From the IMG/VR virus record IMGVR_UViG_3300020536_000393, positions 1-29,128 of that record: DNA of 29,128 nucleotides. One strand, given 5' to 3'. The notes beneath the pieces are model-generated. The model was not told the DNA's origin. It searched no databases and saw nothing but the letters and a program-made list of their open reading frames with translations. This document shows, one piece after another, positions 3 through 24,426 of this stretch. How positions within the stretch are numbered: position 1 is the stretch's first letter; the number at the start of each line of letters is the position of its first letter. The DNA is from a virus. The position numbers were made by a program, and so were the translations under genes.

Positions 3-230
3 ATTTCTACTGAAGCATCCTCAAGAGTATCAGGTGATGCGTCTTTATCAACTGCAATTTCTACTGAAGCTTCTACAAGAACTTCTGCTGACGCTTCTTT
101 ATCGACTGCATTATCTACTGAAATCTCAACTGAAGCATCAACAAGGTTATCTGCCGATAATTCATTATCAAGTGCGATTTCCACTGAAGCTTCGACAAGA
201 CAATCTGCCGATGAGTCTTTGTCAACGGCA
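3..230 (+). repeat. Four in-frame coding repeats (54-bp unit, one of 66 bp)
   Basis: Units lie at 3-56, 57-110, 111-176 and 177-230. Each encodes I/L-S-T-E-A-S-T-R-x-S-A/G-D-x-S-L-S-T/S-A. The third unit is 12 bases longer because it carries an extra LSTE. The units diverge mainly at third codon positions, so the repeat is kept at protein level. The array probably continues upstream of the window. Confidence 0.85.
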
Positions 231-485
231 ATTTCGGCCATCAATGCTTCGGACTTTGGTAAAGTAGGAACTACAGGAGTTGTTAACGGAACAAATAAAG
301 ATTTCCCGTTGGACGATGAGTTAGTTGCAAATACTGAATTTGTATATTTAAATGGTCTATTACAAAGTGCTGGTGACGACTATACAGTTGTTACAGCATT
401 AGGTGGTAACATTGCGCAAATCAACTTTGTTACAGCACCAAAACTTGGTTCTACTGTTCAATTTGCAGGTAACATAGTTGCTTAA
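3..485 (+). CDS. Fibre-like structural protein, C-terminal part (5' end outside window)
   Basis: The frame is open from the window edge to the TAA at 483-485, so the true start lies upstream. Residues 1-76 are repeats of about 18 residues of the form ISTEASTRxSADxSLSTA, a Ser/Thr/Ala pattern expected to form a coiled-coil or fibrous stalk. The last 75 or so residues form a different compact beta-rich domain with NGTNKDFPLDD, FVYLNGLLQSAGDDYTV and a VTAPKLGSTVQF ending. Such domains occur at the ends of phage fibre and other appendage proteins. Role inferred: shaft plus tip of a tail fibre or similar appendage. The gene is convergent with the DUF2827 pair and ends at a bidirectional terminator. 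Receptor and exact structural position are unknown. Confidence 0.7.
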   Translation: MSTEASSRVSGDASLSTAISTEASTRTSADASLSTALSTEISTEASTRLSADNSLSSAISTEASTRQSADESLSTAISAINASDFGKVGTTGVVNGTNKDFPLDDELVANTEFVYLNGLLQSAGDDYTVVTALGGNIAQINFVTAPKLGSTVQFAGNIVA

Positions 486-536: not shown

Positions 537-1739
537 TTATAGATTATCGTATAAATTTGTTTTTGGATTATAAATCAAATGTTTATTACCCCCATTAAAC
601 AAGTTATATATCATTTTATCATAAGTTTCAACCAACATTTCATTATCAGCGTGATATCTTTGAAGGACCTTATCATTTCTTTCATGATATTCTGTTAAAT
701 TATTATCGTGTTCGGTTAAAATATAATTTAATTGTTTTGACCCCTCAACCGTATCAGATCCTTCGTAGTAATAACCAAGATCTTTACACAAAGGTGCGTT
801 ATGTAAAACAGGATAACCAAGAAACGCTGCGTCCAAATATAAATAATTCAAAGGATTTAAAACTTGATGACAAACTAAAATATCAACATACTGACTCAAA
901 ACAAAGGCCGTTTGATATCTACCTTCACCGGTAACTTTACCATCTTTATATAAATCGAAAGTTTTTATCAACCCCATAAACTCATGATTTGTTTTCAAAT
1001 TTTGTGCATTTGTAATCATTAAAGAATTGATATTTTTTTTACCAATTTCACCTCTGTAACATTCTTCTGTTATCATAGTTGGAATAAGTGCGTATTTAAC
1101 AATATTAATATTTGGCTCCATCACACCAATAGTTTTCTTTTCTTTAAAAGGTTGGTATTTATAACCCTTTTTATATTTACCATCGATAAACCCCTGTTCG
1201 ATTTCTTTAACACTTTCTAACAAAAATTTATGATGCCAAATGAATGGAACCATAATTGCATTTGTTCGATATAACGTATTATAATATCCATAATTTGTTT
1301 CATGTTGTTGTGGTATATACCATACTTCATCAAAAGTTGTTTCGATTTCCATATATTTTTTTTTGTTTTCATCAAACAAAACTTTTTCCATATGTAATAC
1401 ATAATTGTTTCCACATTTATATGCGACATATTTTTTATTTCCCGATTCTTTAAATTTCAAAACTTTTTCTTCATGGATTTGAGATCCCATCGGAAAGATT
1501 AAATCCATTTCCATATATTTGTCATCAAAATAAAATATATCAATATCTTTAAGATAGTTTCCTTTTTTGGCATCATCACCCTCAACCTTATTTGTATTTA
1601 AAAGAAAAACCTCATAATTATTTTTTGATTGTTTTAAAAGGTGAATAAACATCAATATATTTTGTTTTAAACCATTAGTCCAAATAGACTCGGAATAATT
1701 CATCAAAGATATTGTAATACCAATTTTTAAATTTTTCAT
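537..1739 (-). CDS. DUF2827-like glycosyltransferase-type protein, copy 2
   Basis: This 400-residue protein resembles the DUF2827 family, a group of unknown function with a glycosyltransferase-B-like look. It is a clear paralogue of the gene just upstream. Shared blocks are IGIT at the N-terminus, NG-x-x-QN, Y-x-CGN-x-Y, VPFIW, G-V-x-EPN and LGYPVLHN followed by DLGYYYEG. The last block resembles the C-terminal donor-binding half of GT-B enzymes. I chose the ATG at 1737-1739 because it puts IGIT at the same place as in the paralogue. The longer frame from 1793 would overlap the upstream gene by 44 bases and add 18 residues with no counterpart there. It lies 10 bases after the upstream stop, so the two are probably co-transcribed. 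Substrate unknown. Confidence 0.7.
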   Translation of the reverse strand: MKNLKIGITISLMNYSESIWTNGLKQNILMFIHLLKQSKNNYEVFLLNTNKVEGDDAKKGNYLKDIDIFYFDDKYMEMDLIFPMGSQIHEEKVLKFKESGNKKYVAYKCGNNYVLHMEKVLFDENKKKYMEIETTFDEVWYIPQQHETNYGYYNTLYRTNAIMVPFIWHHKFLLESVKEIEQGFIDGKYKKGYKYQPFKEKKTIGVMEPNINIVKYALIPTMITEECYRGEIGKKNINSLMITNAQNLKTNHEFMGLIKTFDLYKDGKVTGEGRYQTAFVLSQYVDILVCHQVLNPLNYLYLDAAFLGYPVLHNAPLCKDLGYYYEGSDTVEGSKQLNYILTEHDNNLTEYHERNDKVLQRYHADNEMLVETYDKMIYNLFNGGNKHLIYNPKTNLYDNL

Positions 1740-1749
1740 TTTATAAGTT

Positions 1750-2898
1750 TTAATATATTTTATTTTCTTTCCAATCGTATTGTTTTCTTTCAAATTTATT
1801 GTTCAATACATTATCAACCAAATACTTATATTGCAAAACTAAATTATCATTTTGAGATGTATACCTTTTGATTATCTCTCGATTTTTAGTTAAGTAATTT
1901 CCATAATTATCGTTATGAGTTTTAATTACCTCATCAATTTTCAAAACCGCATCATCACCGTCAAATCCTTCGTAATAGTATCCAACATCTTGACACATAG
2001 ATCCATTATGGATGATTGGATATCCCATCCATGCAACATCGAACCATAAATAGTTTAAATTATTTTCCCATTGCCAACTTAAAACAAAATCAACGTGTTC
2101 GGTTAAAACTTTATCTGTTTGGAATCTAGATTCAACGGTCAATATTTTATTTTTATAAATGTCTGTTGATTGAATAAAATTAACATATGGTTTTGAGTCT
2201 CTTATTAATTCAGTTCCAAATACGTAAATGTGTTTTAATGGATTAGTTTTTTGACTTTTATTTAGTATTATTGTTGGTAATATTGAATTTTTCATGACCG
2301 ACATGTTTGGTTCTAAAACTCCACATTTTTCAATAGGTCTTGGTGTGTATGTAGATTTTTCTCTAATCTCAAATGAACGTTCTATAACAAATGGATCCCA
2401 TATAAAAGGAACTACAGTAACTTTTTCTTGTCCTGTGTAAAATTTATAAAAAAAGTAATTAGTATTCTCCATTTGAGGAATTGACCACACTTGATGAGGT
2501 ATTTGGTCATAATCAAATCTATCTTTTAAAGTGTTATTTTCTCTTTTGTAATCAAACAACATTCTTTCAGTGTTGATTAAATAATGATTACCACATTCAT
2601 ATGTTACAAACTTCAAGTCTTTATTTTTTTGTTTCCAATTTGAAAACATTTTTTTACTAACGGTAAGTCCTACTTGGATTATCAAATTATATCTTATATT
2701 ATAAGATTTTTCTAAACTAAATGTGTTGATTTCTTTTTCATATTCACTAACGTCATCTATGGTTTTTTGATCTCCACAAATCAAATCCACAATATACCCA
2801 CCTTTTTTCAAAACTCTTGCTAAGTATAATGCGTTTTGATTAACACCATTTGCAAATAAACTATTATTTATCTTAACGGTTATCCCAATTCTTTTCAT
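1750..2898 (-). CDS. DUF2827-like glycosyltransferase-type protein, copy 1
   Basis: This 382-residue paralogue of the next gene starts MKRIGITVKINN and keeps the family blocks: FANGVNQNALYLARVL, TYECGNHYL, VPFIWDPFVIE, GVLEPNMSVMKN and MGYPIIHN followed by DVGYYYEG. The conserved Gly/Glu/His-rich C-terminal block suggests sugar-nucleotide binding, but I cannot see a proven catalytic residue. The gene begins one base after the J-domain gene ends and runs into the second copy, so the three form one minus-strand operon. The duplicates have diverged strongly, which suggests separate roles, for example two steps in building a glycan. Family assignment is from memory of conserved blocks. Confidence 0.7.
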   Translation of the reverse strand: MKRIGITVKINNSLFANGVNQNALYLARVLKKGGYIVDLICGDQKTIDDVSEYEKEINTFSLEKSYNIRYNLIIQVGLTVSKKMFSNWKQKNKDLKFVTYECGNHYLINTERMLFDYKRENNTLKDRFDYDQIPHQVWSIPQMENTNYFFYKFYTGQEKVTVVPFIWDPFVIERSFEIREKSTYTPRPIEKCGVLEPNMSVMKNSILPTIILNKSQKTNPLKHIYVFGTELIRDSKPYVNFIQSTDIYKNKILTVESRFQTDKVLTEHVDFVLSWQWENNLNYLWFDVAWMGYPIIHNGSMCQDVGYYYEGFDGDDAVLKIDEVIKTHNDNYGNYLTKNREIIKRYTSQNDNLVLQYKYLVDNVLNNKFERKQYDWKENKIY

Positions 2899-2899
2899 T

Positions 2900-3460
2900 C
2901 TAAATTCCTTTTGATTGTTTTATATATAGATAGATTACAGATTCTTTTTCTTCCTTTGTTTTTGCATGAACCCATAACCATAAAAAAGATGTTTCTAAAA
3001 CTGTAGATTTTTGTTTTTTTAAATTAACAATTTTTTGTAATAAAGTAATATCTGATTCTACAAATTCAATTTCTATGTTTAACTTTTTACAAAGTTTATA
3101 TAAACTCAATAGGTCATTTTTTTCATATGCCTTGTGTGATTCAATATAAATTTGATTTAAGTAATTATCATTTATTTTATCAGGATGAGTCTGTTTTGCA
3201 ATTGTTCGATATATTTCTTTAATTCTTTGTTTATCATTTTCATCGACATCATATATATCTTCTTTTTTTATCTGTGTTTCTCCATTTTTTGTGTCCCCTG
3301 AATTGGTTATTGATTCATCTGACAGACCAACTACTTCTGACATGAATTGTGTCTTATAGGTGTTTGTGAACTCTTCAACGTAAATCTCATTCAATTCTAA
3401 TGTTTCTAACTCATTCAATAGAATTTTTATTTTATATTCATATAGTTTGTGATTTTTCAT
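2900..3460 (-). CDS. J-domain (DnaJ-like) protein
   Basis: This 186-residue protein has a J-domain-like segment at about residues 75-125. A basic helix (RIKEIYRTIAKQ) is followed by the HPD tripeptide at 92-94 in QTHPDKIND, then a helix with ESHKAYEKNDLLSLYKL. HPD is the residue set that stimulates Hsp70 ATPase in J proteins, so the likely role is recruiting host DnaK. Residues 1-70 are acidic and unassigned, and the C-terminal helical part is also unrecognised. There is no Gly/Phe-rich or zinc-finger region, so this is not a full DnaJ. It heads the minus-strand operon with the two DUF2827 genes and has a TATTTAT element six bases upstream of its ATG. Confidence 0.75.
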   Translation of the reverse strand: MKNHKLYEYKIKILLNELETLELNEIYVEEFTNTYKTQFMSEVVGLSDESITNSGDTKNGETQIKKEDIYDVDENDKQRIKEIYRTIAKQTHPDKINDNYLNQIYIESHKAYEKNDLLSLYKLCKKLNIEIEFVESDITLLQKIVNLKKQKSTVLETSFLWLWVHAKTKEEKESVIYLYIKQSKGI

Positions 3461-3575: not shown

Positions 3576-3920
3576 TTATATAAAAGTTGGTGTTGGTGTT
3601 ATTGTTGGTGTAACACTGGGTGTCACAGTAGGACTTAGTCCAGGTGTCACTGTTATTGTTGGGGTCATTGTGGGTGTTACTGTCATAGTGGGTGTTGGTG
3701 AACAAGAATAATTTATAAACTCAGTGCAACCACTTGAGTCAATAACCTTAACATTTACAACACTTGCAACATCTAAAGGTGGTGGAATATCCAACACCAA
3801 GACCGGAGGAGCAACAACGGAGGACGCAATCAAATAACAATATGTGTTTGTTATATCACAAGCGTAAAAATCAAAAGGAGAATTACCAGATATAGAAGTT
3901 ATTATTATTTGTTTCGGCAT
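3576..3920 (-). CDS. Small protein with a Thr-Pro repeat tail
   Basis: This is a 114-residue protein of unknown family. Residues 1-70 form a beta-rich head (MPKQIIITSISGNSPFDFY) with several cysteines (ACDITNTYCY, SSGC). Residues from about 72 to the end are a Thr-Pro low-complexity tail made of units such as TPTMT, TPTIT and VTPS. The same kind of tail ends the protein at 9092-9613, and Thr tracts occur at 8571-9071 and in the tail sheath. This points to a virion surface protein with an extended, possibly glycosylated tail. It lies divergent from the GT60-type glycosyltransferase. I see no signal peptide. The reading is sure from the matched promoter-like element and low complexity in frame; the function is not. 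Confidence 0.6.
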   Translation of the reverse strand: MPKQIIITSISGNSPFDFYACDITNTYCYLIASSVVAPPVLVLDIPPPLDVASVVNVKVIDSSGCTEFINYSCSPTPTMTVTPTMTPTITVTPGLSPTVTPSVTPTITPTPTFI

Positions 3921-3930
3921 GTCTTAGTTT

Positions 3931-3938
3931 ATAAATAC
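3931..3938 (-). promoter_or_regulatory. TATTTAT element upstream of the Thr-Pro tail gene
   Basis: The minus strand reads GTATTTATAAACTAAGAC and then ATG at 3920, so the element ends 10 bases before the start. Confidence 0.55.
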
Positions 3939-3980
3939 TTTATTTTACTATACATTATAATATTTTTTTAAAAAAAATCC

Positions 3981-5225
3981 ATGAAAATATTTGTCCAAAT
4001 CGCATCTTATAGAGACCCCCAACTTATACCAACAATCGAAAACTTGTTAGAAAATGCCAAAAAACCTAAAAACATAGTTATAGGTGTTGCAAGGCAATTT
4101 CATCCTGAAGATGGTTTTGACGATTTATCTAAATACAAAAAAGATAAAAGATTTAGAATTTTAGATATTCCTTATACAGATTCAAAAGGTGTTTGTTGGG
4201 CGAGACATCAAGTCCAACAATTATATGGTGGTGAAGAATATACTTTACAAATAGACTCCCATATGCGTTTTGAAAAAAACTGGGACGATGAAATGATTAA
4301 AATGATTAAACAACTTCAAAAAAAGGGATACAAAAAACCATTACTTACAGGTTATGTTTCATCATTTGATCCTGAAAATGATCCTGAAGGAAGAGTTAAA
4401 GAACCATGGAGAATGTCATTTGACAGATTCACCCCCGAAGGTGTCGTGTTTTTCTTACCTGAAACTATTCCTGGTTGGCAAGAAATGAAAGAACCTGTTC
4501 CTGCAAGATTTTATTCTGCCCACTATTGTTTTACATTGGGTGAGTTTTCAAAGGAAGTTCAACATGATCCTGAATTTTATTTCCACGGAGAAGAAATTTC
4601 TATAACTGTTCGAGCCTACACTCATGGGTATGACTTATTTCATCCACACAAAGTTCTTATTTGGCACGAATACACTCGTAAAGGTAGAACAAAACAATGG
4701 GATGATGATAAAGAATGGTATTTGAAAAACATTTCGTGTCATAAAAAAAACAGACAACTACTTGGAGTTGATGGTGAAAAGTTTGATGGAGATTACTTAG
4801 AGTGGTTCGGATCTGAAAGAACAATCAAAGATTACGAAAAATACGCAGGTCTTTTATTTGAGACAAGAGGTATTCAACAAGAAACAATTGATAAAAAATA
4901 TCCACCAAACACTTACAATTTTGAAAATGAAGATGAATGGAAAAAATCATTTTCAACAATTTTTAAACATTGTATTGATTTGAGTTTTAATAATGTTCCC
5001 GAAGAAGATTATGATTTTTGGGTAGTTGCGTTTCACGACGACAAAGATGAAACGATATATAGACGAGATGCCGATATTAATGAAATAAATAATTGTAAAA
5101 AAGATCCTGATGGATACTGTAAGATATGGAGAGAGTTTAATACAACTCAAAAACCAAAATATTGGGTTGTTTGGCCTTATTCTAAATCTAAAGGTTGGTG
5201 CGATAGAATAACTGGCAATTTATAA
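3981..5225 (+). CDS. GT60-type polypeptide N-acetylglucosaminyltransferase
   Basis: This 414-residue protein matches the glycosyltransferase (GlcNAc) family of Dictyostelium Skp1 GlcNAc-transferase and the trypanosome mucin GlcNAc-transferase. The opening MKIFVQIASYRDPQLIPTIE and the IVIGVARQ strand are diagnostic. A DxH metal-binding triad (D92-S93-H94, in QIDSHMRF) is followed by an acidic FHGEEIS segment near 202-207 and an IWHEYTR motif near 227-233. Known members transfer GlcNAc from UDP-GlcNAc to hydroxyproline or to Thr/Ser of a protein. Residues from about 320 form an extra Trp/Asp-rich C-terminal domain. The carbamoyltransferase follows after only three bases, so they share a transcript. 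Upstream lies a gene with a Thr-Pro tail, a plausible acceptor. No clear TATTTAT element precedes it, only TATAAT at 3956-3961. Confidence 0.85.
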   Translation: MKIFVQIASYRDPQLIPTIENLLENAKKPKNIVIGVARQFHPEDGFDDLSKYKKDKRFRILDIPYTDSKGVCWARHQVQQLYGGEEYTLQIDSHMRFEKNWDDEMIKMIKQLQKKGYKKPLLTGYVSSFDPENDPEGRVKEPWRMSFDRFTPEGVVFFLPETIPGWQEMKEPVPARFYSAHYCFTLGEFSKEVQHDPEFYFHGEEISITVRAYTHGYDLFHPHKVLIWHEYTRKGRTKQWDDDKEWYLKNISCHKKNRQLLGVDGEKFDGDYLEWFGSERTIKDYEKYAGLLFETRGIQQETIDKKYPPNTYNFENEDEWKKSFSTIFKHCIDLSFNNVPEEDYDFWVVAFHDDKDETIYRRDADINEINNCKKDPDGYCKIWREFNTTQKPKYWVVWPYSKSKGWCDRITGNL

Positions 5226-5228
5226 AAA

Positions 5229-6803
5229 ATGGCAAACATATCTTTTTATGGTTCACATAACGCTTCTGTTGTTGTTGAAAACCAAGGTGAAATTATTGTA
5301 GTTATTGAAGTTGAGAGATTCCTTTCACAAAAAAATGCGGGCTATTCGCAGTATTTAGTATCTTACACAAGACCTTTTTTACTTAAACATATTGTTGAGT
5401 ATATCAAAGACGAGTATGGAATTTTTGAATATGATAAATGTTACTTTTTAAATTCAGATACTATCGAAGGTAATACAAAAGTTCATTATCAAAAATTAAT
5501 ACCAGCTAAAGAATATATAGAATGTCTCCATCACTTAAGTCACGCAGCTTGTGGTTTTTATCAAACAGACTACAACGAGGCTTTGATTGTATCTTTTGAT
5601 GGTGGTGGTAACGATGGATTTTTTAATATCTACCACGCAAAGGATAGAAAGACAATTAATATCGTAGAAAAATTTAATATTGATTTAGGATTTCCATACA
5701 TGTCTTTTGGGGATTACTTAGGAGACATAAGAAGAGAACCGGCTCTTAGCATTGGTAATTTAGTTTATTCAGGAAAAATTATGGGTCTTTGTTCTTATGG
5801 TAATGTAAATGAAAATTGGTTACCTTATTTTAAAGAGTATTATAGAAAAAAACCTGATGGGAACAACTACTTACAATATTTGAGTGAGTTGGGAAGTCAA
5901 ACAAATTTATCATTTGATATAAATAATAGAATGACAGATCAGTTGGGTTGGGACGTTGCAAAAACTTCACAGGTTGCATTTGAAGAAGTCTTTATAGAAA
6001 TGATTAAACCATTTTTAGATAAGTTTCCTAATATACCTTTAATTCTTGTTGGGGGTTGTGGTCTTAATATTTTATTGAACACAAGATTACACGACGAATT
6101 GAATAGACCTGTATTTGTTCCACCAAATCCAAATGATTGCGGAATTGCAACAGGTATGATATTAAATCATATTAAACCCGAAAAGGCGATTGATATTACG
6201 TATTCTGGTATTGATATATTAGATAAACACACACTAATGTCTCACGTTGAGGAACGGCACGCCAAACCAATTAATTATGAAAAACTAATTGATGATTTAT
6301 CTAATGGAAAAATTGTTGGAGTGGTTAGAGGAAATTCCGAACATGGTCCTCGTGCTCTTGGTAATCGAAGTATTATTTGTAATCCGGCATATGATAATAT
6401 GAAAGACATACTCAATCAAAAAGTAAAAAACAGAGAATGGTATAGACCATTTGCTCCTGTCTGTAAATTAGAAGATGTTTCTAAATATTTTAATTTTAGT
6501 GGTGAAAGTAGATGGATGGGATTTTGTCCTACTGTAAAAGAAGAGTGGAGAGAAAAATTGGTTTCTATTACCCATGTTGATGGAACCGCAAGAGTTCAGA
6601 CCGTTACAGAAAAACAAAATCCTTGGTTATATAATTTACTCACCGAATTTGAAAAAAAATCTGGTATTGGAGTTTTACTAAACACATCATTCAATGTGAA
6701 TGGAAAACCAATACTTTCAAGATATACCGATGCAATTCAAGTTTATGATAAGACACAGATGGATTGTTTAATACTAAATGATTATTACTTCACCAAACAT
6801 TAA
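5229..6803 (+). CDS. Carbamoyltransferase, NodU/CmcH/TobZ family
   Basis: This 524-residue protein has the full family signature. HHLSHA (H101, H102, H105) and VSFDGGGNDG (from 121) are the metal and adenylate site of the Kae1-like domain. GGCGLNILLN (275-284) and SEHGPRALGNRS (370-381), with REWYRPFAPV after it, belong to the C-terminal carbamoyl-transfer part. LLNTSFNVNGKPI closes it. Such enzymes use carbamoyl phosphate and ATP to carbamoylate a hydroxyl on a sugar or other small group; viral members have been reported to act on hydroxymethylcytosine in DNA. Here it sits between two glycosyltransferases, which favours a sugar attached to virion protein, but DNA stays possible. No residue of the known catalytic motifs is missing. 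Confidence 0.9.
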   Translation: MANISFYGSHNASVVVENQGEIIVVIEVERFLSQKNAGYSQYLVSYTRPFLLKHIVEYIKDEYGIFEYDKCYFLNSDTIEGNTKVHYQKLIPAKEYIECLHHLSHAACGFYQTDYNEALIVSFDGGGNDGFFNIYHAKDRKTINIVEKFNIDLGFPYMSFGDYLGDIRREPALSIGNLVYSGKIMGLCSYGNVNENWLPYFKEYYRKKPDGNNYLQYLSELGSQTNLSFDINNRMTDQLGWDVAKTSQVAFEEVFIEMIKPFLDKFPNIPLILVGGCGLNILLNTRLHDELNRPVFVPPNPNDCGIATGMILNHIKPEKAIDITYSGIDILDKHTLMSHVEERHAKPINYEKLIDDLSNGKIVGVVRGNSEHGPRALGNRSIICNPAYDNMKDILNQKVKNREWYRPFAPVCKLEDVSKYFNFSGESRWMGFCPTVKEEWREKLVSITHVDGTARVQTVTEKQNPWLYNLLTEFEKKSGIGVLLNTSFNVNGKPILSRYTDAIQVYDKTQMDCLILNDYYFTKH

Positions 6804-6830
6804 TAAAATTTTTTAAAAAAATTACGAGGT

Positions 6831-8504
6831 TTGAATTCAAAATTGACAATAGTTACTGGTTTATGGGATATAAAACGAAACGAACTTACAGAAGGTTGGG
6901 CAAGATCTTATGATCATTATTTAGAAAAATTTTCACAACTACTAGAGGTAGATTGTAATATGATTATATTCGGTGATGGTGAATTAGAAAAATTTGTTTT
7001 TTCCAAACGAAGTCCTGAAAACACACAATTTATCGTTAGAAATCTATCATGGTTTAAGGGTGAATTTTACGATAAGATCCAAGAAATTAGAACAAACCCA
7101 AATTGGTATAATTTATCCGGTTGGTTAAAAGATTCAACACAGGCAAAACTCGAAATGTATAATCCTCTTGTAATGTCAAAAATGTTTTTATTACATGATG
7201 CGGTTATATTAGACAAATTTAATTCTCAAAAATTATTTTGGTTAGACGCTGGAATTGCAAACACCGTAAATATGGGTTATTTCACTCACGATAAAGTTTT
7301 AGATAAAATAGAAAATTTATTTAATCGTTTTACTTTCATCGCATTCCCATATGATGCCGACAGAGAAATTCATGGTTTTGATATTGATTCGATGACCGAG
7401 ATTGTTGGTCAAAGAGTAAATAAAGTATGTAGGGGTGGTTTTTTTGGTGGTTCTAAAATGATGATTAGAGAAATGAATACTTTGTATTACGATCTAATGA
7501 GAACCACATTAAATAACGGTTTAATGGGAACGGAAGAAAGTTTATTTTCTATTATGACATATACCAACCCAACTAACATTGATTATGTAGAAATAGAATC
7601 GAATGGACTACTTTACAAATTTTTTGAGGATGTAAAAAATGATTCTGTCATTATTAAAAGTTTTAGAAAAAATGAACCTATTGTCGTTAATAAAAATGGG
7701 GATGTTGGATTATATGTTATAACGTTCAATAGTCCAAAACAATTTGAAACTCTAATAAAATCTATGTTGGGATATGACATAAACTTCATTTATAAAACTA
7801 AAAAATTTCTACTGAATAATTCAACGGATCTGACGACAACTCCCGAATATGAAAGATTGTGTGAGCAATATGGATTTGAGCACATTAAAAAAGACAATAT
7901 AGGAATTTGTGGTGGAAGACAATTCGTCGCTGAACATTTTGCAAATACCGATTTACAATATATGTGGTGGTCAGAGGACGATATGTTTTTTCAAAACAAA
8001 CCATACGAAACTTGTAGAAATGGGTTTAATAGATATACACCAAATTTATTTGATAAATGTGTTGAAATAATGAATAAGGAGAATTTCGAATTTCTTAAAA
8101 TAAATTATAGTGAATTTTATGGTGACAATGGGACTTGTTGGCCTTGGTATAATTTACCACAAGAAAAAAGAGTAGAGTTTTTTCCCGAAAAACCAAATTT
8201 ACCTGTTAGTGGTTTAGATCCAGAGGCTCCAAAAACAAAATTTAATAATATTAAATCTCATTTAGGATTGCCATATGTTGATGGGGAAATTTATTACTGT
8301 AATTGGACTCACATTATAAGTCAAGAAGGTAATAAAAAAATGTTTTTGGATACAAAGTGGAGTTACCCTTTTGAAAATACATGGATGAGTCATCATTACC
8401 AACTAACAAAGATAAATCAACTAAGGGGAGGATTATTATTACTAACTCCAATTGAACATGATAGGTTCGATCATTACCCCAAAGAATTAAGGAAAGAATG
8501 TTAA
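6831..8504 (+). CDS. Two-domain protein: HtrL/YibB-like plus glycosyltransferase
   Basis: The protein is 557 residues. Residues about 5-265 match the HtrL/YibB family: TIVTGLWDIKR, then GW near 22, MIIFGD, WYNLSGWL, YNPLVMSKMFLL and FWLDAGI. Residues about 292-557 form a second GT-A-like domain beginning GLYVITFNSPKQFETLI, with ICGGRQF and an acidic WWSEDDM (EDDM at 382-385) that fits a DxD-type metal site. The start is a TTG at 6831 with GAGG just upstream; a second in-frame TTG at 6843 would give MTIVTG. No ATG exists between the upstream stop (6801-6803) and 6843. It closes the cassette 27 bases after the carbamoyltransferase. The sugar and acceptor are unknown; HtrL domains occur in bacterial surface-glycan clusters. 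Confidence 0.75.
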   Translation: MNSKLTIVTGLWDIKRNELTEGWARSYDHYLEKFSQLLEVDCNMIIFGDGELEKFVFSKRSPENTQFIVRNLSWFKGEFYDKIQEIRTNPNWYNLSGWLKDSTQAKLEMYNPLVMSKMFLLHDAVILDKFNSQKLFWLDAGIANTVNMGYFTHDKVLDKIENLFNRFTFIAFPYDADREIHGFDIDSMTEIVGQRVNKVCRGGFFGGSKMMIREMNTLYYDLMRTTLNNGLMGTEESLFSIMTYTNPTNIDYVEIESNGLLYKFFEDVKNDSVIIKSFRKNEPIVVNKNGDVGLYVITFNSPKQFETLIKSMLGYDINFIYKTKKFLLNNSTDLTTTPEYERLCEQYGFEHIKKDNIGICGGRQFVAEHFANTDLQYMWWSEDDMFFQNKPYETCRNGFNRYTPNLFDKCVEIMNKENFEFLKINYSEFYGDNGTCWPWYNLPQEKRVEFFPEKPNLPVSGLDPEAPKTKFNNIKSHLGLPYVDGEIYYCNWTHIISQEGNKKMFLDTKWSYPFENTWMSHHYQLTKINQLRGGLLLLTPIEHDRFDHYPKELRKEC

Positions 8505-8548
8505 TTTAGTATTTTATCACTTTTATTATATGAATAATTTAAATAAAA

Positions 8549-8556
8549 GTATTTAT
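8549..8556 (+). promoter_or_regulatory. TATTTAT element upstream of tail-tract paralogue 1
   Basis: GTATTTAT ends 14 bases before the ATG at 8571. The bases that follow (ATGTAAAAGATTTA) are nearly the same as those after the copy at 9071-9078. Confidence 0.6.
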
Positions 8557-8570
8557 ATGTAAAAGATTTA

Positions 8571-9071
8571 ATGGAGTGGTTCATAAAGAAAAATTCAACA
8601 TTACCCGTATTAAAAATTAACGTCATAAAAGACGGTAGAAGTGATTACGATAGAACGATGAGGTATCTAAATGAAACCGACATATTCTTTTCGATGGTTG
8701 ATACTCAAACTGGAATCCCAAGAATTTCAAGCAGACCTGCAGGTTTAATGAAAAAAGAGCAACTTAGCACAAGTGCCGAAACGGAATATTATGTTTATTA
8801 TCAATTCACGCCTTTTGACACAAAAAAAGTTGCAAGATATAAAGGTCAATTTTTATTCAGAAACGATACAGGTATAATGACGTTACCTTTGAATCAAGAT
8901 ATATTTATAAACGTTACGGAAAGTTTTATAATAGATGATGTGGAATTTCAATCTTGTTATGTTGTGGACTTTCCTTGTTGTATTGGGGGTTCGTTACCCT
9001 TTCCTCCGTTTCCAGTTACCACAACAACTACAACAATAATATACACCACCACAACAACCACTACTATCTAG
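8571..9071 (+). CDS. Virion-type beta domain with poly-Thr tail, paralogue 1
   Basis: This 166-residue protein is of unknown family. It is a clear tandem paralogue of the next gene: both start MEWFI or MEFTI, then NSTLP, share FFSMVDT, YYVYY-x-FT, DT-x-KV, RY-x-GQFLF and end the head with C-Y and CC. The head (1-140) looks like an Ig-like or baseplate-type beta domain. Residues 150-166 are almost pure threonine in two runs of six and seven, split by IIY. Such tracts resemble mucin acceptor regions, and a GT60-type enzyme lies 3.3 kb upstream. It has its own TATTTAT element. Role inferred: decoration or appendage protein of the virion. Confidence 0.65.
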   Translation: MEWFIKKNSTLPVLKINVIKDGRSDYDRTMRYLNETDIFFSMVDTQTGIPRISSRPAGLMKKEQLSTSAETEYYVYYQFTPFDTKKVARYKGQFLFRNDTGIMTLPLNQDIFINVTESFIIDDVEFQSCYVVDFPCCIGGSLPFPPFPVTTTTTTIIYTTTTTTTI

Positions 9072-9078
9072 TATTTAT
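9071..9078 (+). promoter_or_regulatory. TATTTAT element upstream of tail-tract paralogue 2
   Basis: GTATTTAT begins on the last base of the previous stop codon and ends 13 bases before the ATG at 9092. It was apparently copied together with the gene, since the leaders of both paralogues are nearly identical. Confidence 0.6.
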
Positions 9079-9091
9079 AGTAAAAGATTAA

Positions 9092-9613
9092 ATGGAATTT
9101 ACAATAGCCCAAAATTCTACCTTACCTCTTCTTAAATTACAAGTTGTGAAAGATGGTATTCAGAACTATGACTCTATGATGGAGTTCATAGAAAGGTCTT
9201 CCATTTTCTTTTCTATGGTTGATACCACAAATGGTTTATTCAAAGTATATACCAAAACCGCAAGTTTTGTGGAAAAATTAGGTATGGACCCTAACTCAAC
9301 ACCAGAGTATTATGTGTATTATAGATTCACTCAACAAGACACTAGTAAAGTTGGAAGGTATGAGGGTCAATTTTTATTTATAAATGAAACAGGAACTTTA
9401 ATCTTACCAATAAGAGAACCACTTTATATAAATATTGTTGAAAGTTATATTGCAAATGATTTAACATATAACGATTGTTATATTTTACAATACAATTGTT
9501 GTGTTACCCCATTTCCAACACCAACACCAAGTCCGACTAGAGATTTTATTTTGTCAATGACACCAACCCCAACCCCAACAAACACACCAACACCAACTCA
9601 AAGTCCTGTATAA
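9092..9613 (+). CDS. Virion-type beta domain with Thr-Pro tail, paralogue 2
   Basis: This 173-residue tandem copy of the previous gene has a shared head: MEFTIAQNSTLPLLKLQVVK, FFSMVDTTNG, YYVYYRFTQQDTSKVGRYEG and a YNCC ending. The tail (about 142-173) differs: it is a Thr-Pro-Ser array with TPTPSPT and TPTPTPTNTPTPT, interrupted by RDFILSM. So the same head carries a different low-complexity tail, and that tail resembles the one at 3576-3920. This suggests tails are exchanged between structural genes. No hairpin terminator follows, only a T run. Function unknown; a surface-exposed virion protein is likely. Confidence 0.65.
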   Translation: MEFTIAQNSTLPLLKLQVVKDGIQNYDSMMEFIERSSIFFSMVDTTNGLFKVYTKTASFVEKLGMDPNSTPEYYVYYRFTQQDTSKVGRYEGQFLFINETGTLILPIREPLYINIVESYIANDLTYNDCYILQYNCCVTPFPTPTPSPTRDFILSMTPTPTPTNTPTPTQSPV

Positions 9614-14021: not shown

Positions 14022-16223
14022 TTATGTAGTCGGGCAAGTAATAAGTTTTTTTTCTCCTTGGGGAATGTCTAAAACAACAGATTCTAAAATGTCTTTATCA
14101 ACAAATTTATATGCCTCAACTTTATTGTATTCCGGTTTGATCCTGAAACGTATTGATAGTCTTTTTTCATCACACCCCCTTTGACCTTTGTTCGACCAAT
14201 AAAGTTCAATATACTCTATTGGTATAATTATATCGTTCGAATAAACCATACCTGAAATTTTATTTCTAACACTATCAAGATAGTTTTTTGCATTTTGATT
14301 TGTTTGTAACCAAATAAATATTTTATCAATCAATTCATTATATATATCGATCACTAATGGTTTGTCATTTTTTAAATTACTTTGTTTAAAAATTGAGAAA
14401 AATTCCGATAAATAACTATCTATTGCGTAATCCATGTTTTTTGCCTCAAGAAATGATCCTTTAGGGAACATAACGTCACCATTTTCTTTTTTTAAATCCA
14501 TAGCAACTTCCATATCAGATTTTAAATTCTTAGTTGTATTTTTAAATGAATCTGTCAAACATTTTGTAATTCTAAAAAAATTAAAATTCAAAGTTTCTTT
14601 TTTATCTCTAATTTTGTGAAGTGTCTGTATAATTTTGTCTTTAGCGTCATCACCACAATTATAGTTAAGTTCCAATTTTGTTGCTTTTTTAGTAAAGTAA
14701 GGTGTGTCTGTAAATCTTAATTCGTGTTTTTCATGTTCTTTAAATTTTATATAATCTAACATCGCTTCTAAATCTTTAGGAATAACATTCTTATTCTTAA
14801 ATTGTCTAAGCACTTTTTTGGTATATTCGTTATCAAATCTTTCGTCTTCAATGAAATCCGCAACCAATTTTAAAAAGTTTGCAATTTGATTAACATCAGG
14901 AAGGCTCAATTTAATTATTGTAGGAAAAACACCAACAGATATTCTAGAAAAAAATTTTCTCATTTTAGTTAAACTTTCGTTTATACTATCCTCAATCATT
15001 TTGTTGTTGAGTGACCCAATAACTTTTTCTAATTCACAAAAAGGTGAATCTGTTTTACCCCTTGATTTTACCGACCTACACAATTTGGAAACCATAGTTT
15101 CGTTTTTATTAGTATTTTCGTTCAAAGATTTTTTTTCAGATGTTTCTAATTTACTCAAGTATAAATCATTCACAAATTCCCAATTAACAACATCCCAAAA
15201 ATTGTTTATATATTCATCACGTTTATTCTGATACTTTAAATAATAAGCGTGTTCCCAAACATCCAGACCTAGTATAGGAAACCCCCCTTTTTTAACAACA
15301 TTCATTAAAGGGTTATCTTGGTTAGGGGTGGACATTATTTTTAACTTACCATCTTTAGAAAGATATAACCAAGCCCATCCTGAACCGAAACGATCCTTGG
15401 CGGCTTGATTGAACTCATCTTTCATTTTTTTAATGTTACCAAAATCTTTTTTTATTTGATCGTATATTTCACCTTTTGGGATTTGTTTTTTAGGTGATAA
15501 CATTTTCCAAAACAACGCATGATTAAAGGCACCTCCGGCATTATTTCTAACGGTATTATCAAATTTACTTATAGATTTGATAATCTCCTCTAACTCCATA
15601 TCACCACTTTCGTTCTTAAGTGCCTTATTTAATTTATCAACATAACCCTTATAGTGTTTGTTATAATGAACATCCATCGTTTTAGAGTCAATAAATTTTT
15701 GAAGTGAAGAGTATGAGTATGGTAATTTATCAATTCCAATTTTTTTCATCTCAGCAATCAAACTTTCTTTGATTAAAGATTTTTCGTTTCGTTGTATGTT
15801 TTCTCTAATTAGAGTTAGTTTATTTTCTAAACTTTTATATTCATACATTCTCGGTTCAAAATCAGGATTTTCTTTTTCAAAAATTTTAATAAGTCTTCCT
15901 GCAAAAGCATTCGCCTCATCTTCATTTTTACCACCAATGTCCGGACCTTTTTCTCTTTTTAAAACATCCATTTGATGTTCGTGAACCCATTCGTGAGCTA
16001 AGGTTCTCATGATGTCTCGATTCATTCGATCACCAACTAAGACTTTAATAACATTATCCGATCTTCTACTACCTGTTGACATTTCACCTTTTTTTTGATT
16101 TAAAAAAATTATTCTTAAATCATTTTTTAAGGGAAATTCTCGTTGCAAAAGTTTTATGAACTTATTAACAAAGTCAGAATGTTTTTTAAAATCTTTATTT
16201 TCGTAACTGAATGATACTTTCAT
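14022..16223 (-). CDS. Fusion: HExxH metallopeptidase-like, Mn-type superoxide dismutase, unknown C-domain
   Basis: The frame encodes 733 residues without a stop. Residues 1-150: a zinc-peptidase-like region with HEWVH (77-81) and, about 20 residues on, EDEANAFAGRL (101-111), where a Glu could be the third ligand. Residues 165-355: a full Fe/Mn superoxide dismutase with all four metal ligands, H186 (DVHYNKHYKGYV), H235 (FNHALFW), D321 and H325 (DVWEHAYY), plus the gating Tyr at 194. NNAGGAFNH and STPNQDNPLM, with the Gln at 302, are of the manganese type. Residues 365-733: unrecognised, helical and Lys-rich, with ENTNKNE as a likely linker near 370. It is followed by the gp13-like gene and preceded by structural genes, so it may be virion-associated. 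SOD removes superoxide; how it serves a phage is not known. Confidence 0.85.
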   Translation of the reverse strand: MKVSFSYENKDFKKHSDFVNKFIKLLQREFPLKNDLRIIFLNQKKGEMSTGSRRSDNVIKVLVGDRMNRDIMRTLAHEWVHEHQMDVLKREKGPDIGGKNEDEANAFAGRLIKIFEKENPDFEPRMYEYKSLENKLTLIRENIQRNEKSLIKESLIAEMKKIGIDKLPYSYSSLQKFIDSKTMDVHYNKHYKGYVDKLNKALKNESGDMELEEIIKSISKFDNTVRNNAGGAFNHALFWKMLSPKKQIPKGEIYDQIKKDFGNIKKMKDEFNQAAKDRFGSGWAWLYLSKDGKLKIMSTPNQDNPLMNVVKKGGFPILGLDVWEHAYYLKYQNKRDEYINNFWDVVNWEFVNDLYLSKLETSEKKSLNENTNKNETMVSKLCRSVKSRGKTDSPFCELEKVIGSLNNKMIEDSINESLTKMRKFFSRISVGVFPTIIKLSLPDVNQIANFLKLVADFIEDERFDNEYTKKVLRQFKNKNVIPKDLEAMLDYIKFKEHEKHELRFTDTPYFTKKATKLELNYNCGDDAKDKIIQTLHKIRDKKETLNFNFFRITKCLTDSFKNTTKNLKSDMEVAMDLKKENGDVMFPKGSFLEAKNMDYAIDSYLSEFFSIFKQSNLKNDKPLVIDIYNELIDKIFIWLQTNQNAKNYLDSVRNKISGMVYSNDIIIPIEYIELYWSNKGQRGCDEKRLSIRFRIKPEYNKVEAYKFVDKDILESVVLDIPQGEKKLITCPTT

Positions 16224-17150: not shown

Positions 17151-17158
17151 ATAAATAT
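17151..17158 (-). promoter_or_regulatory. TATTTAT element upstream of the fibre-like gene
   Basis: The minus strand reads ATATTTATTTAGAAATAG and then ATAAATT and ATG at 17133. The element touches the stop codon of the helicase gene (17158-17160). Confidence 0.5.
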
Positions 17159-18918: not shown

Positions 18919-18948
18919 TTCAAGTCTTTTACTAAAAATAACAATAAA

Positions 18949-18960
18949 ATAAATATTTAT
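18949..18960. promoter_or_regulatory. Palindromic TATTTAT element shared by divergent genes
   Basis: ATAAATATTTAT is a perfect 12-base palindrome holding the TATTTAT element on both strands. It lies 15 bases before the plus-strand ATG at 18976 and 30 bases before the minus-strand TTG at 18918. It could drive both the gp14-like gene and the helicase. Confidence 0.5.
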
Positions 18961-18975
18961 CAATAAAACAACCAA

Positions 18976-21090: not shown

Positions 21091-24000
21091 ATGGCAACTA
21101 ACAGTAAAGTTTTTGTTTCTCCAGGTGTTTACACCTCTGAGGTTGACTTAAGTTTTGTCGCTCAAAGTGTCGGTGTAACAACACTGGGCATCGTGGGAGA
21201 AACATTGATAGGTCCGGCATTTGAGCCGATCTTTATTAGAAATTTTGATGAATTTCAAACAGTATTTGGGGGAACGTCTCCTGAGAAATTTATCAACACA
21301 ACAATACCTAAATATGAGGCCGCTTATATCGCTCAAGCATATTTACAACAATCAAACCAATTGTTTGTAACAAGAATCTTAGGTTTATCTGGTTATGATG
21401 CGGGACCTTCTTGGTCTGTAACAACAGTAGCGAATGTGGATCCATCAACAGTAGGTTTATGGTGTTTAAGTTCAGTCACAAGCACCGCAACTTGTGAAAC
21501 AACTTGTGTTGATTATTATGATGAGGTATATTCAATCCCTTTCACCGGATGTAATAATGATATATCAACAATTTCATATCTTTCATCTTTCCCGAGTGAA
21601 ATTCAGGATATTTTATACCAACAATATGAACAATTCAACGGAGGAACATCAACATTAGATGATAATATACGAAGTCTTATATTTGATGTAATCACCAGTT
21701 CTAACCCATTTGTTGCTGAAGATGAATTTATTTCTTACTTCGGTTCAATTCCAACAAATGATTATGACGTATTAACAAATGCAGGTTGGACAGCATCTAC
21801 AAATGTATTTGGTGTTCCATCGGTTTCTTTAGATGATACTAATTTATTATCTCCTTTAAATGACGCTTGGTATTACGCATTATTCAACACAACAGGAAAT
21901 ACTAATTATAGTGGGTATTCTTTCTTTACATATGTTTCAGGTTTGACTTTATCCCCTATCACAACAACAACAACGATAGTTCCATCTACAACGACTACAA
22001 CTACCAATCCTTGTGTGACTCCTGTTCCAACAACAAGCACAACTACAACAACAACTTTACCTGTAAATTGTTACTCAGGTAATTTATTGTTAAAAGTTTA
22101 TTATTATACAGGAACTTCTTATAGCGATTATGATAATGTTGTTGTAGGAACGCTAAGATCAAGAGGTGTTGCGACTTATGTGAATTCTACTAACCCAGCG
22201 TATTCTGTAACAGGAATTACTGATGTTACACTGAATATGACAGGACAATACTCAGGGGTTCTTAAAAATCCATATTCAACTTTTGGTGTTAATGTTGTTG
22301 ATAAGTTCGGAACATCATATTTCTTTGAAACTTCTTTCACACAAAATGATCCTGAATATTGGTCAAAAGTGTTTGGTGTTACTAACTTCCAAAAACCAAG
22401 AATTGAGGTTCCAGTATTTGCTGAAGAAAATTTCCAATCATGGTTAAACTTCGCATGGAGAAAAGGTTACATTAAAGGTTTGAACCCCAATTTAATTTCA
22501 TTAGATTCTGCACAAAGTGGAGATCCTGACTCAATTGGTTGGTATTTAGATAAATGGCAAACACCAAATTCACCATTTGTTGTTTCAGAATTGAGAGGTA
22601 ATAAGGTATATGACTTATTTAGATTCTACACAATTTCTGATGGTGATGGGGCAAATACTTTAATAAAAATATCTATTGTTAATCAAACATATAGTAATCT
22701 TACGTTTGACGTATTGATTCGTGACTATTTTGATACAGATGCCAATCCTGTAGTATTGGAGAAATTTACAAACTGCACCATGGATCCAGGTCAAAACAAC
22801 TTTATCGCCAACAAAATAGGAACATTGGACGGTGAATATATGTTGAATTCTAAATACGTAATGGTTGAGATGTCAGAAGACGCACCGATAGATGCTTTAC
22901 CATGTGGATTTAACGGATTTAATTTTAGAAATTACGCAGGAGCTCAATCACCTTTCCCAATTATTAAGGGTAAATATGACTTCCCAGGTGAGGTTATTTA
23001 CAATCCTCCATTTGGTTTATCATCAGGTAATGACAATGCTCTTGTTAGTCCAGGAGATAATGTTAGAAGAACTTACTTAGGTATTTCGAACTCTTATGGA
23101 TGGGATCCGGCTTACTTTGAATATGTTGGTAAGAGAAACCCAATTAATTCTTGTGATATTGAAGGTTTACCATTCAATTACAGATCGGCAGGTTTCCACA
23201 TGGATGTAAATGCAAGTGGTTTAACAATCGGACCTGAGTTCTCAACAAGTGGAGATCCAAGATTTATTTGTGGTAACTCTCCGTTCATTACTGAACCTGA
23301 ATTACCAACAAATGCATATTATAGATTGTTCGCACGTAAATTCACTTTATTAGTTCAAGGTGGTTTTGATGGTTGGGACATTTATAGAGAATGGAGAACC
23401 AACGAAGATAGATTCCAAATTGGTAGATCAGGTTATTTGAATGGTGCATGTCCATCTACAAGATACCCGAACGCAACAGGTTGGGGAGCATTTAAAGAAA
23501 TTTCTTTAGGTGATGGAACACAAAACTTTGCAAATACTGACTACTACGCATATCTTTTAGGACAACAAACTTTCGCAAACCCTGAAGCAACAAACATCAA
23601 CGTGTTTGTAACTCCAGGTATCGATTATGTAAATAATAGTAATCTTGTGGAAGATGCGGTTCAAATGATCGAGTTCAACAGAGCGGATTCACTATATGTT
23701 TGCACCACACCTGATGTTGATTTATTCTCACCGGCTAACTCAGGAACTGATATATTTATCTACCCAACTGAGGCTGTTGATAATTTGGATAATACAGGAA
23801 TTGACTCTAACTATACCGCAACTTACTATCCGTGGGTTTTGACAAGAGATAGTGTGAATAACACTCAAATTTATATCCCACCGACAGCTCAGGTAACAAG
23901 AAACTTAGCGTTGACAGATAACATCGCATTCCCATGGTTCGCTGCGGCGGGTTACACTCGTGGTATTGTAAATTGTATCAAAGCTCGTAAGAAATTGACT

Positions 24001-24426
24001 CAAGAAGATAGAGACATTCTTTATGTTGGTAGAATTAACCCAATTGCAACTTTCTCAGATGTGGGAACCGTAATTTGGGGTAATAAAACTTTACAAGTAA
24101 GAGAATCGGCTCTTGATAGAATTAACGTTAGAAGATTGTTATTACAAGCTCGTAAATTAATTTCGGCAGTATCGGTAAGATTATTGTTTGAACAAAACGA
24201 TGCACAAGTTAGACAAGACTTCTTAAATGCGGTCAATCCTATCTTAGATGCTATTAGACGAGATCGAGGTTTATATGACTTTAGAGTGACGGTTTCATCT
24301 GATCCTGAAGATATTGATAGAAATCAATTGACAGGTAAGATTTACATAAAACCTACAAGAGCTCTTGAATTTATAGACATCACGTTCTATATCACACCAA
24401 CGGGAGCGTCATTTGAAAATATATAA
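21091..24426 (+). CDS. 18: Tail sheath protein, gp18-type, enlarged
   Basis: This 1111-residue protein is far longer than T4 gp18 (about 660). The N-terminus (FVSPGVYTSEVDLSF, GIVGETLIGPAFEPIFI, FQTVFGG) and the C-terminal domain (GYTRGIVNCIKARKKLTQED, LYVGRINPIATF, RRLLLQARKLISAV, YDFRVTVSSDPEDIDRNQ) are those of contractile tail sheaths. The sheath core seems to be residues 1-110 and roughly 750-1111. In between lies a very large insertion, expected to point outward. At about 288-330 it carries Thr tracts (SPITTTTTIVPSTTTTTTN, then STTTTTTLPV) of the kind seen at 8571-9071. The sheath contracts to drive the tube through the envelope. It has a TATTTAT element upstream and a strong terminator downstream. 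Confidence 0.93.
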   Translation: MATNSKVFVSPGVYTSEVDLSFVAQSVGVTTLGIVGETLIGPAFEPIFIRNFDEFQTVFGGTSPEKFINTTIPKYEAAYIAQAYLQQSNQLFVTRILGLSGYDAGPSWSVTTVANVDPSTVGLWCLSSVTSTATCETTCVDYYDEVYSIPFTGCNNDISTISYLSSFPSEIQDILYQQYEQFNGGTSTLDDNIRSLIFDVITSSNPFVAEDEFISYFGSIPTNDYDVLTNAGWTASTNVFGVPSVSLDDTNLLSPLNDAWYYALFNTTGNTNYSGYSFFTYVSGLTLSPITTTTTIVPSTTTTTTNPCVTPVPTTSTTTTTTLPVNCYSGNLLLKVYYYTGTSYSDYDNVVVGTLRSRGVATYVNSTNPAYSVTGITDVTLNMTGQYSGVLKNPYSTFGVNVVDKFGTSYFFETSFTQNDPEYWSKVFGVTNFQKPRIEVPVFAEENFQSWLNFAWRKGYIKGLNPNLISLDSAQSGDPDSIGWYLDKWQTPNSPFVVSELRGNKVYDLFRFYTISDGDGANTLIKISIVNQTYSNLTFDVLIRDYFDTDANPVVLEKFTNCTMDPGQNNFIANKIGTLDGEYMLNSKYVMVEMSEDAPIDALPCGFNGFNFRNYAGAQSPFPIIKGKYDFPGEVIYNPPFGLSSGNDNALVSPGDNVRRTYLGISNSYGWDPAYFEYVGKRNPINSCDIEGLPFNYRSAGFHMDVNASGLTIGPEFSTSGDPRFICGNSPFITEPELPTNAYYRLFARKFTLLVQGGFDGWDIYREWRTNEDRFQIGRSGYLNGACPSTRYPNATGWGAFKEISLGDGTQNFANTDYYAYLLGQQTFANPEATNINVFVTPGIDYVNNSNLVEDAVQMIEFNRADSLYVCTTPDVDLFSPANSGTDIFIYPTEAVDNLDNTGIDSNYTATYYPWVLTRDSVNNTQIYIPPTAQVTRNLALTDNIAFPWFAAAGYTRGIVNCIKARKKLTQEDRDILYVGRINPIATFSDVGTVIWGNKTLQVRESALDRINVRRLLLQARKLISAVSVRLLFEQNDAQVRQDFLNAVNPILDAIRRDRGLYDFRVTVSSDPEDIDRNQLTGKIYIKPTRALEFIDITFYITPTGASFENI

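Follow-up and report, generated by a model that had tools for sequence, protein, structure and literature searches.

To our knowledge, glycosylated phage particles are known from few cases and follow unclear acceptor rules, and no variable cassette is known for virion glycosylation of the type seen in mycobacteriophage Che8. In Che8 and its relatives, capsid and tail-tube proteins receive glycans from transferases that the phage itself encodes (cited in PMC12619734, PMC11256854); those phages differ in type from the one described here, and their glycans are placed on the C-termini of capsid and tube. Closer to our locus is Xanthomonas phage XacN1, which carries an orthologous GT60-carbamoyltransferase-HtrL/GT operon. 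The XacN1 authors report at least two glycoproteins ascribed to the phage's glycosyltransferases, one being this GT60 (ORF334), and suggest that these enzymes glycosylate them; the GT60, its HtrL partner, the threonine tracts and the wider family are not named in the text consulted (PMC5852040). Moraphages, freshwater jumbo phages of up to 307 kb with mostly Bacteroidota hosts, have four core orthologue groups that are glycosyltransferases, for which their description offers no acceptor or mechanism beyond general remarks (PMC12619734). They are probably the clade to which our phage belongs.

Among cellular systems, streptococcal serine-rich-repeat glycoprotein loci combine GtfA/GtfB priming with accessory transferases that act stepwise in the cytoplasm (PMC5796085). 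Our locus follows the same logic, an acceptor gene adjoining a conserved priming enzyme and variable extenders, whereas its putative priming enzyme is GT-A/GT60 rather than GtfA/GtfB and is found in phages; no accessory Sec system was seen in the loci read. The GT60 polypeptide alpha-GlcNAc-transferases (Toxoplasma and Dictyostelium Gnt1, and the Trypanosoma cruzi enzyme) belong to the same Pfam family (PF11397) across the full catalytic region, share its metal-binding-type DxH motif and act, as a family, on protein hydroxyls. In contrast to these, our enzymes are from phages and bacteria, soluble and in an operon with their own putative elongating enzymes, and the candidate acceptors are Thr/Pro tracts. 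We consider it probable (roughly 70%) that the locus encodes a cytoplasmic, stepwise O-glycosylation module acting on the phage's own Thr/Pro-tract proteins.

Gene organization of the locus

The coordinates and reading frames of the locus (Table 1) were verified in the window, the whole 29,128-nucleotide stretch analysed. Gaps of 3, 27, 66 and 20 bases separate the five forward-strand genes between 3981 and 9613, which therefore plausibly form one operon. The earlier note had placed the GT60 enzyme, carbamoyltransferase and HtrL protein together in an operon, with which the Pfam matches and short gaps agree. It also had three Thr-tailed proteins flanking them; the tracts are real and two of these genes follow downstream on the same strand, whereas the third is divergent from GT60 and lies outside the operon.

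Table 1. Features of the putative glycosylation locus and the tail sheath tract (positions in the window)
Feature	Position	Strand	Evidence
Thr-Pro tail protein, 114 aa, candidate acceptor	3576..3920	-	tract score 14/20 near C-terminus
GT60 (PF11397) polypeptide HexNAc-transferase candidate, putative initiating enzyme	3981..5225	+	PF11397, motifs, model
O-carbamoyltransferase, predicted optional glycan decoration	5229..6803	+	PF02543 + PF16861
HtrL_YibB domain with C-terminal GT-A-like domain, putative conserved extending enzyme	6831..8504	+	PF09612, EDDM
Small beta-domain protein with poly-Thr tail, candidate acceptor	8571..9071	+	homologues at same place in most loci
Paralogue of 8571-9071 with Thr-Pro tail, candidate acceptor	9092..9613	+	42% identity, tract score 13
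Thr tracts within tail sheath protein (21091-24426), candidate virion acceptor	21955..22062	+	PF17482/phrog_23

Family and fold of the enzymes

Pfam assigned PF11397 alone to the candidate initiating enzyme, with the catalytic region covered (E = 4.4e-71; 240 bits against a cut-off of 21). Its DSH (D92-S93-H94) and GEE (203-205) motifs are invariant in 32 relatives and are also present in XacN1 and RAS14, which bears out the original assignment of a GT60-type enzyme with DxH and EE motifs. The accompanying remark that the family is mostly known from eukaryotes fails in practice, since over 300 loci were found in phages and several in bacteria. All top 29 solved structures nearest to the GT60 model (pLDDT 82) were mucin-type ppGalNAc-transferases (GT27; Z 16.7-19.5), the best aligning over 266 residues at Z 19.5 and rmsd 3.5, while a sequence search of solved structures with GT60 and HtrL returned no true relative. 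The likeness to GT27 extends to the DSH motif and to Thr/Ser/Pro-rich acceptors (putative here), although identity in the structural alignment is only about 12% and the C-terminal domain is aligned in few rows. Fold comparison thus points to a place near polypeptide HexNAc-transferases, a shared fold not in itself showing function.

The N-terminal half of the putative extending enzyme matches HtrL_YibB (PF09612, E = 4.7e-14), as had been proposed; the C-terminal half lacks a Pfam match, so its designation as a glycosyltransferase domain follows from an invariant EDDM motif. Among 50,697 phage records, full-length homologues of this protein were confined to 3, precisely those that also have GT60.

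The carbamoyltransferase (Carbam_trans_N and _C) is 71% identical to its counterpart in a Jiulongibacter sediminis operon and 45% identical to that of XacN1. It belongs to the variable cassette and is found in few loci, so it appears to be an optional decoration and not part of the core; carbamoylation as a later capping step, as first suggested, is retained as a candidate glycan decoration in this reduced role. Phage-type carbamoyltransferases are known to act on 5hmC in DNA (PMC8670742), and the glycosyltransferases and carbamoyltransferase might accordingly decorate hydroxymethylated bases. We regard such DNA hypermodification as very improbable, the least likely of the readings considered: identity with the proven DNA enzyme is only about 26% and covers just a part of the sequence, and the operon also occurs on bacterial chromosomes. 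DNA-type carbamoyltransferases moreover pair with a thymidylate-synthase homologue, and no thymidylate-synthase/hydroxymethylase homologue was found beside the carbamoyltransferase in the loci, PF00303 matches in the same records lying far from GT60; all four thymidylate-synthase homologues with a readable active site carry the normal Asn. Matches to Tet/JBP base hydroxylases were absent from 19 records in a weak search that also found none in control genomes.

Threonine tracts in candidate acceptors and the tail sheath

Tract density exceeded that expected from composition: among 2000 shuffles per protein, the observed score was reached in 12 (3576-3920), 0 (8571-9071), 3 (9092-9613) and 0 (sheath). 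The Thr codons within tracts are mixed (in the sheath ACA 12, ACT 5, ACG 2 and ACC 1), which rules out a triplet-slippage artefact. Homologues of the 8571-9071 protein carry Thr or Thr-Pro tracts after a conserved CC motif, while some members, the 138-aa forms, are without a tract. A homologue of this small tailed protein was found in no cultured phage at the limit set for the search. A mediocre structure model (pLDDT 72) gave only weak Ig-like Foldseek matches, and a fold name or baseplate role for this protein was therefore dropped.

The tail sheath, identified by PF17482 and phrog_23, bears its tract at a constant place (residues ~284-312) in 48 of 74 sheath relatives, about one third lacking it, and the Thr tracts first noticed in this protein are thus upheld. 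Tracts also occur in a Hoc-like protein and in one XacN1 protein that matches a family of virion structural proteins.

That the acceptor might instead be hydroxyproline within the Thr-Pro tracts, as in Skp1, is suggested by Gnt1 of Toxoplasma and Dictyostelium, likewise a GT60 enzyme, which acts on hydroxyproline (PMC6939170). We judge this very improbable, since the poly-Thr tracts contain little Pro and a PF13640 prolyl hydroxylase-type gene was present in 0 of 17 GT60-positive records against three comparison phages with one, a search of phage records that leaves room for a host hydroxylase to supply the activity.

A conserved core, a variable cassette and their association with tracts

In 46 non-redundant related loci, GT60 and the HtrL protein stand on either side of zero to eight mostly different genes for glycosyl-, methyl-, acetyl- and carbamoyl-transferases; the variable genes named include GT25, GT10, GT34, GT7, GT2, FkbM/TylF methyltransferases, DegT, NTP-transferase, epimerase, GNAT and the carbamoyltransferase. 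The order (tract protein)-GT60-variable genes-HtrL/GT-(tract protein) is kept in about 80 loci. A Thr/Pro-tract protein adjoins the core in 27 of 32 non-redundant loci and lies directly upstream of GT60 in 20 of 36, compared with 2.6% of genes genome-wide.

DNA encoding TPTPTP was present in all 33 GT60-positive records (reversed pattern, 0-1 per record), most of which come from one phage clade, so that these are not 33 independent events and perhaps four or five independent lineages are represented. The three GT60-positive cultured jumbo phages (XacN1, RAS14 and CM1) have 19-29 Thr-Pro-tract matches each, with none in eight GT60-negative jumbo phages or in two more phages; in XacN1 and RAS14 the tract proteins are encoded elsewhere in the genome rather than beside the operon, those of XacN1 including ORFs 232-237, 350, 369, 370 and 372. 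These outside comparisons were used because no GT60-free close relatives within the clade were found via DNA polymerase and GT60 anchors. Among contigs picked blind, GT60 was encoded on 10 of 39 with Thr-Pro tracts and on 0 of 31 with Glu-Lys tracts, the latter being shorter and the contrast size-matched in part only. Two GT60-negative Thr-Pro contigs, L361 and L399, have similar N-terminal sequences, and L399 encodes a 79% homologue of window positions 3-485; both look like fragments of this phage type. Near more divergent GT60 genes (27-34% identical), only weak tracts were found. Overall, the co-occurrence that had been proposed as a check was seen in every GT60-positive phage examined, and the association spans two unrelated jumbo-phage groups as well as bacterial chromosomes.

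Alternatively, the tracts could be mere flexible linkers of tail or surface proteins, with the cassette acting elsewhere, for example on host surface polysaccharide or a lipid-linked sugar. On contigs that lack GT60, Thr-Pro linkers do occur in bacterial proteins that look exported, and a role in modifying host capsule has been proposed for glycosyltransferase clusters of jumbo phages (PMC7824862). This explanation is unlikely, as it does not account for tracts occurring in every GT60-positive phage examined but in none of the GT60-negative jumbo relatives, for the direct adjacency of tract proteins to the core, or for polypeptide transferases being the nearest fold.

Proposed mechanism

Gene families, the conserved bracket with its variable middle, the tract-GT60 association and the fold were computed; the sugar, linkage, acceptor residue, order of steps and presence on the virion are predictions of the glycosylation model. 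In that model, GT60 would transfer the first sugar, probably GlcNAc from UDP-GlcNAc, to threonines (and serines) of the Thr/Pro tracts, which would be disordered targets. The HtrL-GT protein and a lineage-specific enzyme set would then extend and cap the chain; here that set comprises the carbamoyltransferase only, which would carbamoylate a sugar hydroxyl. Likely acceptors are both tailed proteins of the operon, the Thr-Pro protein divergent from GT60, the tail sheath and further tract proteins encoded at other genomic positions. The particle would thereby acquire a glycan coat, and swapping the cassette would change the chemistry of that coat. The earlier note's central idea, that the phage encodes both acceptors and enzymes, is strengthened by the co-occurrence, the conserved core and the fold, while the sugar, acceptor residue and particle glycan that it named keep the standing of predictions.

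Since both the candidate acceptors and the enzymes are recognisable from genome sequence, not only in hundreds of phages from the environment but also in three cultured phages, the prediction can already be tested. Phage surface variation would be explained in part by such a swappable glycan cassette.

Bacterial counterparts

On a Jiulongibacter (Bacteroidota) chromosome, the same operon adjoins the gene for a Thr-Pro protein that appears to be exported, and a Saprospiraceae genome encodes GT60-HtrL with an exported-looking Thr-Pro neighbour. Such loci, together with a phage tract protein in which SprB and a type IX secretion C-terminal domain are found, would fit a module directed at surface proteins of the host instead of the virion, for instance to block adsorption of rivals. 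We find this quite improbable given the tracts in the tail sheath, the XacN1 virion-structural-family protein and the Hoc-like protein, and the glycoproteins in the XacN1 authors' proteomic analysis (PMC5852040).

With the phage's own proteins as the favoured targets, there is about an even chance that these loci form a widespread prokaryotic counterpart of mucin-type O-glycosylation, common to Bacteroidota and their jumbo phages, in which a GT60 primer and an HtrL-GT extender bracket a swappable decorating cassette and so give related phages chemically different glycan coats on Thr/Pro tracts. A large group of freshwater phages, and some bacteria too, thus share a conserved enzyme set that most likely attaches variable sugar chains to Thr-rich parts of their own proteins, in the phage those of the particle, resembling the way in which animals decorate mucus proteins. 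If so, the differing glycan coats would be a counterpart, on virions, of O-antigen variation. The bacterial loci suggest that bacteria have a protein-glycosylation pathway which has gone unrecognised and could also serve as a tool for making mucin-like glycopeptides.

Gene set, threonine tracts and enzyme fold

The window is a 29 kb piece of an uncultured myovirus-type phage genome that encodes a tail sheath, a gp19-like tube and T4-type baseplate components alongside a family-B DNA polymerase, and the genes from which the earlier note had proposed phage-encoded, mucin-like O-glycosylation were present as described. In the proposed HtrL-plus-glycosyltransferase protein, the HtrL_YibB domain was confirmed, whilst the C-terminal half is termed glycosyltransferase-like on one ground, its invariant EDDM motif. 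The sheath tracts were also borne out and occupied one fixed position in 48 of 74 sheaths. Tract scores in the window were matched by 0-12 of 2000 composition-preserving shuffles, and the mixed Thr codons ruled out triplet replication slippage as their source. In IMG/VR, the 29,869-base contig L085 carries a sheath whose C-terminal part is 100% identical to that of the window and probably represents the same phage population.

Features of the putative glycosylation locus and tail sheath in the window
Feature	Position	Strand	Remarks
Thr-Pro protein	3576-3920	-	Divergent
GT60	3981-5225	+	PF11397 match, 4.4e-71
O-carbamoyltransferase	5229-6803	+	
HtrL-GT protein	6831-8504	+	HtrL_YibB domain, then C-terminal half with invariant EDDM motif
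Small protein, poly-Thr tail	8571-9071	+	Paralogue of 9092-9613, 42% identical
Small protein, Thr-Pro tail	9092-9613	+	Paralogue of 8571-9071
Thr tracts of tail sheath	21955-22062		

Among GT60 relatives, DSH, GEE and neighbouring residues were invariant. The best 29 entries in structural alignment of the predicted GT60 structure (pLDDT 82) were all mucin-type polypeptide GalNAc-transferases (Z 16.7-19.5), and Foldseek returned a teichoic-acid GlcNAc-transferase first, followed by a list dominated by the mucin-type enzymes. The candidate initiator appears to resemble them in fold and is by sequence a GT60 member; GT60 enzymes of Toxoplasma and Trypanosoma move GlcNAc onto proteins (PMC6939170). 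We consider it about 70% probable that the locus specifies a cytoplasmic O-glycosylation module, in which the candidate GT60 initiator would begin a glycan extended stepwise on Thr/Pro tracts, those of virion proteins included, with carbamoylation as one optional cap. Its working logic would be that of streptococcal serine-rich-repeat glycosylation loci (PMC5796085).

Conserved ends and variable cassette

Locus order was read in the 80 closest of at least 314 GT60 relatives in IMG/VR and in a second set of 80 loci anchored on the neighbouring polymerase, its contigs partly shared with the first. Both gave the same order: GT60, variable genes, HtrL-GT, one or two small domain-plus-tract proteins, then polymerase. 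The intervening genes formed about 70 clusters, matching glycosyltransferases (GT25, GT10, GT34, GT7, GT2, PLOD-type), FkbM and TylF methyltransferases, DegT aminotransferase, nucleotidyl-, acetyl- and epimerase enzymes and carbamoyltransferase. With fixed ends and diverse glycan enzymes between them, the locus resembles a glycan-assembly cluster. Carbamoyltransferase was confined to a handful of loci, so the later capping step proposed previously would be an optional decoration from the variable middle. Two tandem DUF2827 genes (537-2898, minus strand; E 3e-98 and 3e-71), accompanied by a DnaJ-like gene (2900-3460), are rare among related loci and therefore probably another optional insert.

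Association of tracts with GT60

Across 46 non-redundant loci, a tract protein lay directly upstream of GT60 in 20/36, compared to 2.6% of genes in three large background genomes (binomial p about 1e-22, uncorrected for shared ancestry), and either there or within three genes past the HtrL gene in 27/32. The co-occurrence that the earlier note proposed to check in related genomes was found: DNA encoding TPTPTP was present in 33/33 GT60-positive records (2-43 per record; reversed pattern 0-1) and in 2/10 Microcystis-phage-like control contigs (once or twice each), and GT60 occurred on 10/39 contigs picked blind by Thr-Pro tract versus 0/31 picked by Glu-Lys tract, counts that partly reflect a single clade and the length of the contigs.

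Were the acceptor instead hydroxyproline, as in Skp1, a prolyl hydroxylase might accompany GT60; PF13640 was found in 0/17 GT60-positive records, which makes this reading less likely. That the cassette modifies DNA is unlikely, since carbamoyltransferases acting on DNA occur together with thymidylate-synthase homologues, while the ones found next to glycosyltransferases were from contigs with unmodified DNA (PMC8670742), and phage thymidylate synthases lay far from the GT60 locus, with the ordinary Asn in the four that could be read.

Cultured phages and bacterial chromosomes

GT60 was detected in only 3 of 50,697 phage records, the jumbo phages XacN1, RAS14 and CM1, and exactly these encoded a full-length HtrL-GT protein. 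In XacN1 and RAS14 the operon runs from GT60 through carbamoyltransferase and one or two further genes to HtrL-GT, with 41-47% identity to the window, and their polymerase looks unrelated to the window's. No tract protein adjoined either operon; 16 and 13, respectively, were encoded elsewhere, of which one in XacN1 (251158-255111) matches a virion structural family. TPTPTP was absent from eight jumbo or large phages that lack GT60, among them the XacN1 relatives Atu_ph07, SCTP-2, RaK2 and GAP32, and from a 484 kb phage and Microcystis phage Mel-JY01 (3/3 GT60-positive versus 0/10 comparison phages, Fisher p=0.0035). Tract proteins flank GT60 in another phage (L710), whose enzyme is 38% identical to the window's. 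SprB repeats, a PKD-like domain and a CHU_C type IX secretion domain are present in a further phage Thr-Pro-tract protein (L311:3509-6025; record G002:243509-246028), suggesting a host among the Bacteroidota and the borrowing of cell-surface domains.

On the Jiulongibacter sediminis chromosome, the gene for a Thr-Pro protein whose N-terminus looks twin-arginine-like by eye is followed divergently by GT60 (57% identity to that of the window), carbamoyltransferase (71%) and a gene whose product has FkbM and HtrL domains. On the other side, just downstream of the Thr-Pro gene, a shorter PF11397 gene (L689:5945-6865, minus strand; 28% identity to the window GT60) may encode a second priming enzyme. 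Similar Thr-Pro proteins adjoin GT60-HtrL in a Saprospiraceae genome, where the protein has a tail for type IX secretion, and lie near a GT60 match on a Vicinamibacterales contig.

There is precedent in mycobacteriophages for virion proteins glycosylated by the phage's own enzymes, according to work cited in PMC12619734 and PMC11256854, and PMC5852040 suggests that phage glycosyltransferases, including the GT60 homologue ORF334, glycosylate the XacN1 glycoproteins, of which it reports at least two. New here are the enzyme identity, the recognizable acceptor, the conserved bracket with its variable cassette, and the occurrence of chromosomal versions in bacteria.

Other window genes

An SNF2-type helicase (17158-18975, minus strand; PF00176, 3e-31) adjoins the tail genes. 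An unusual fusion for a phage is the 733-aa product of 14022-16223 (minus strand), in which an N-terminal part with an HEXXH motif (AHEWVHEHQ) precedes an iron/manganese superoxide dismutase domain that is complete (PF00081, PF02777).
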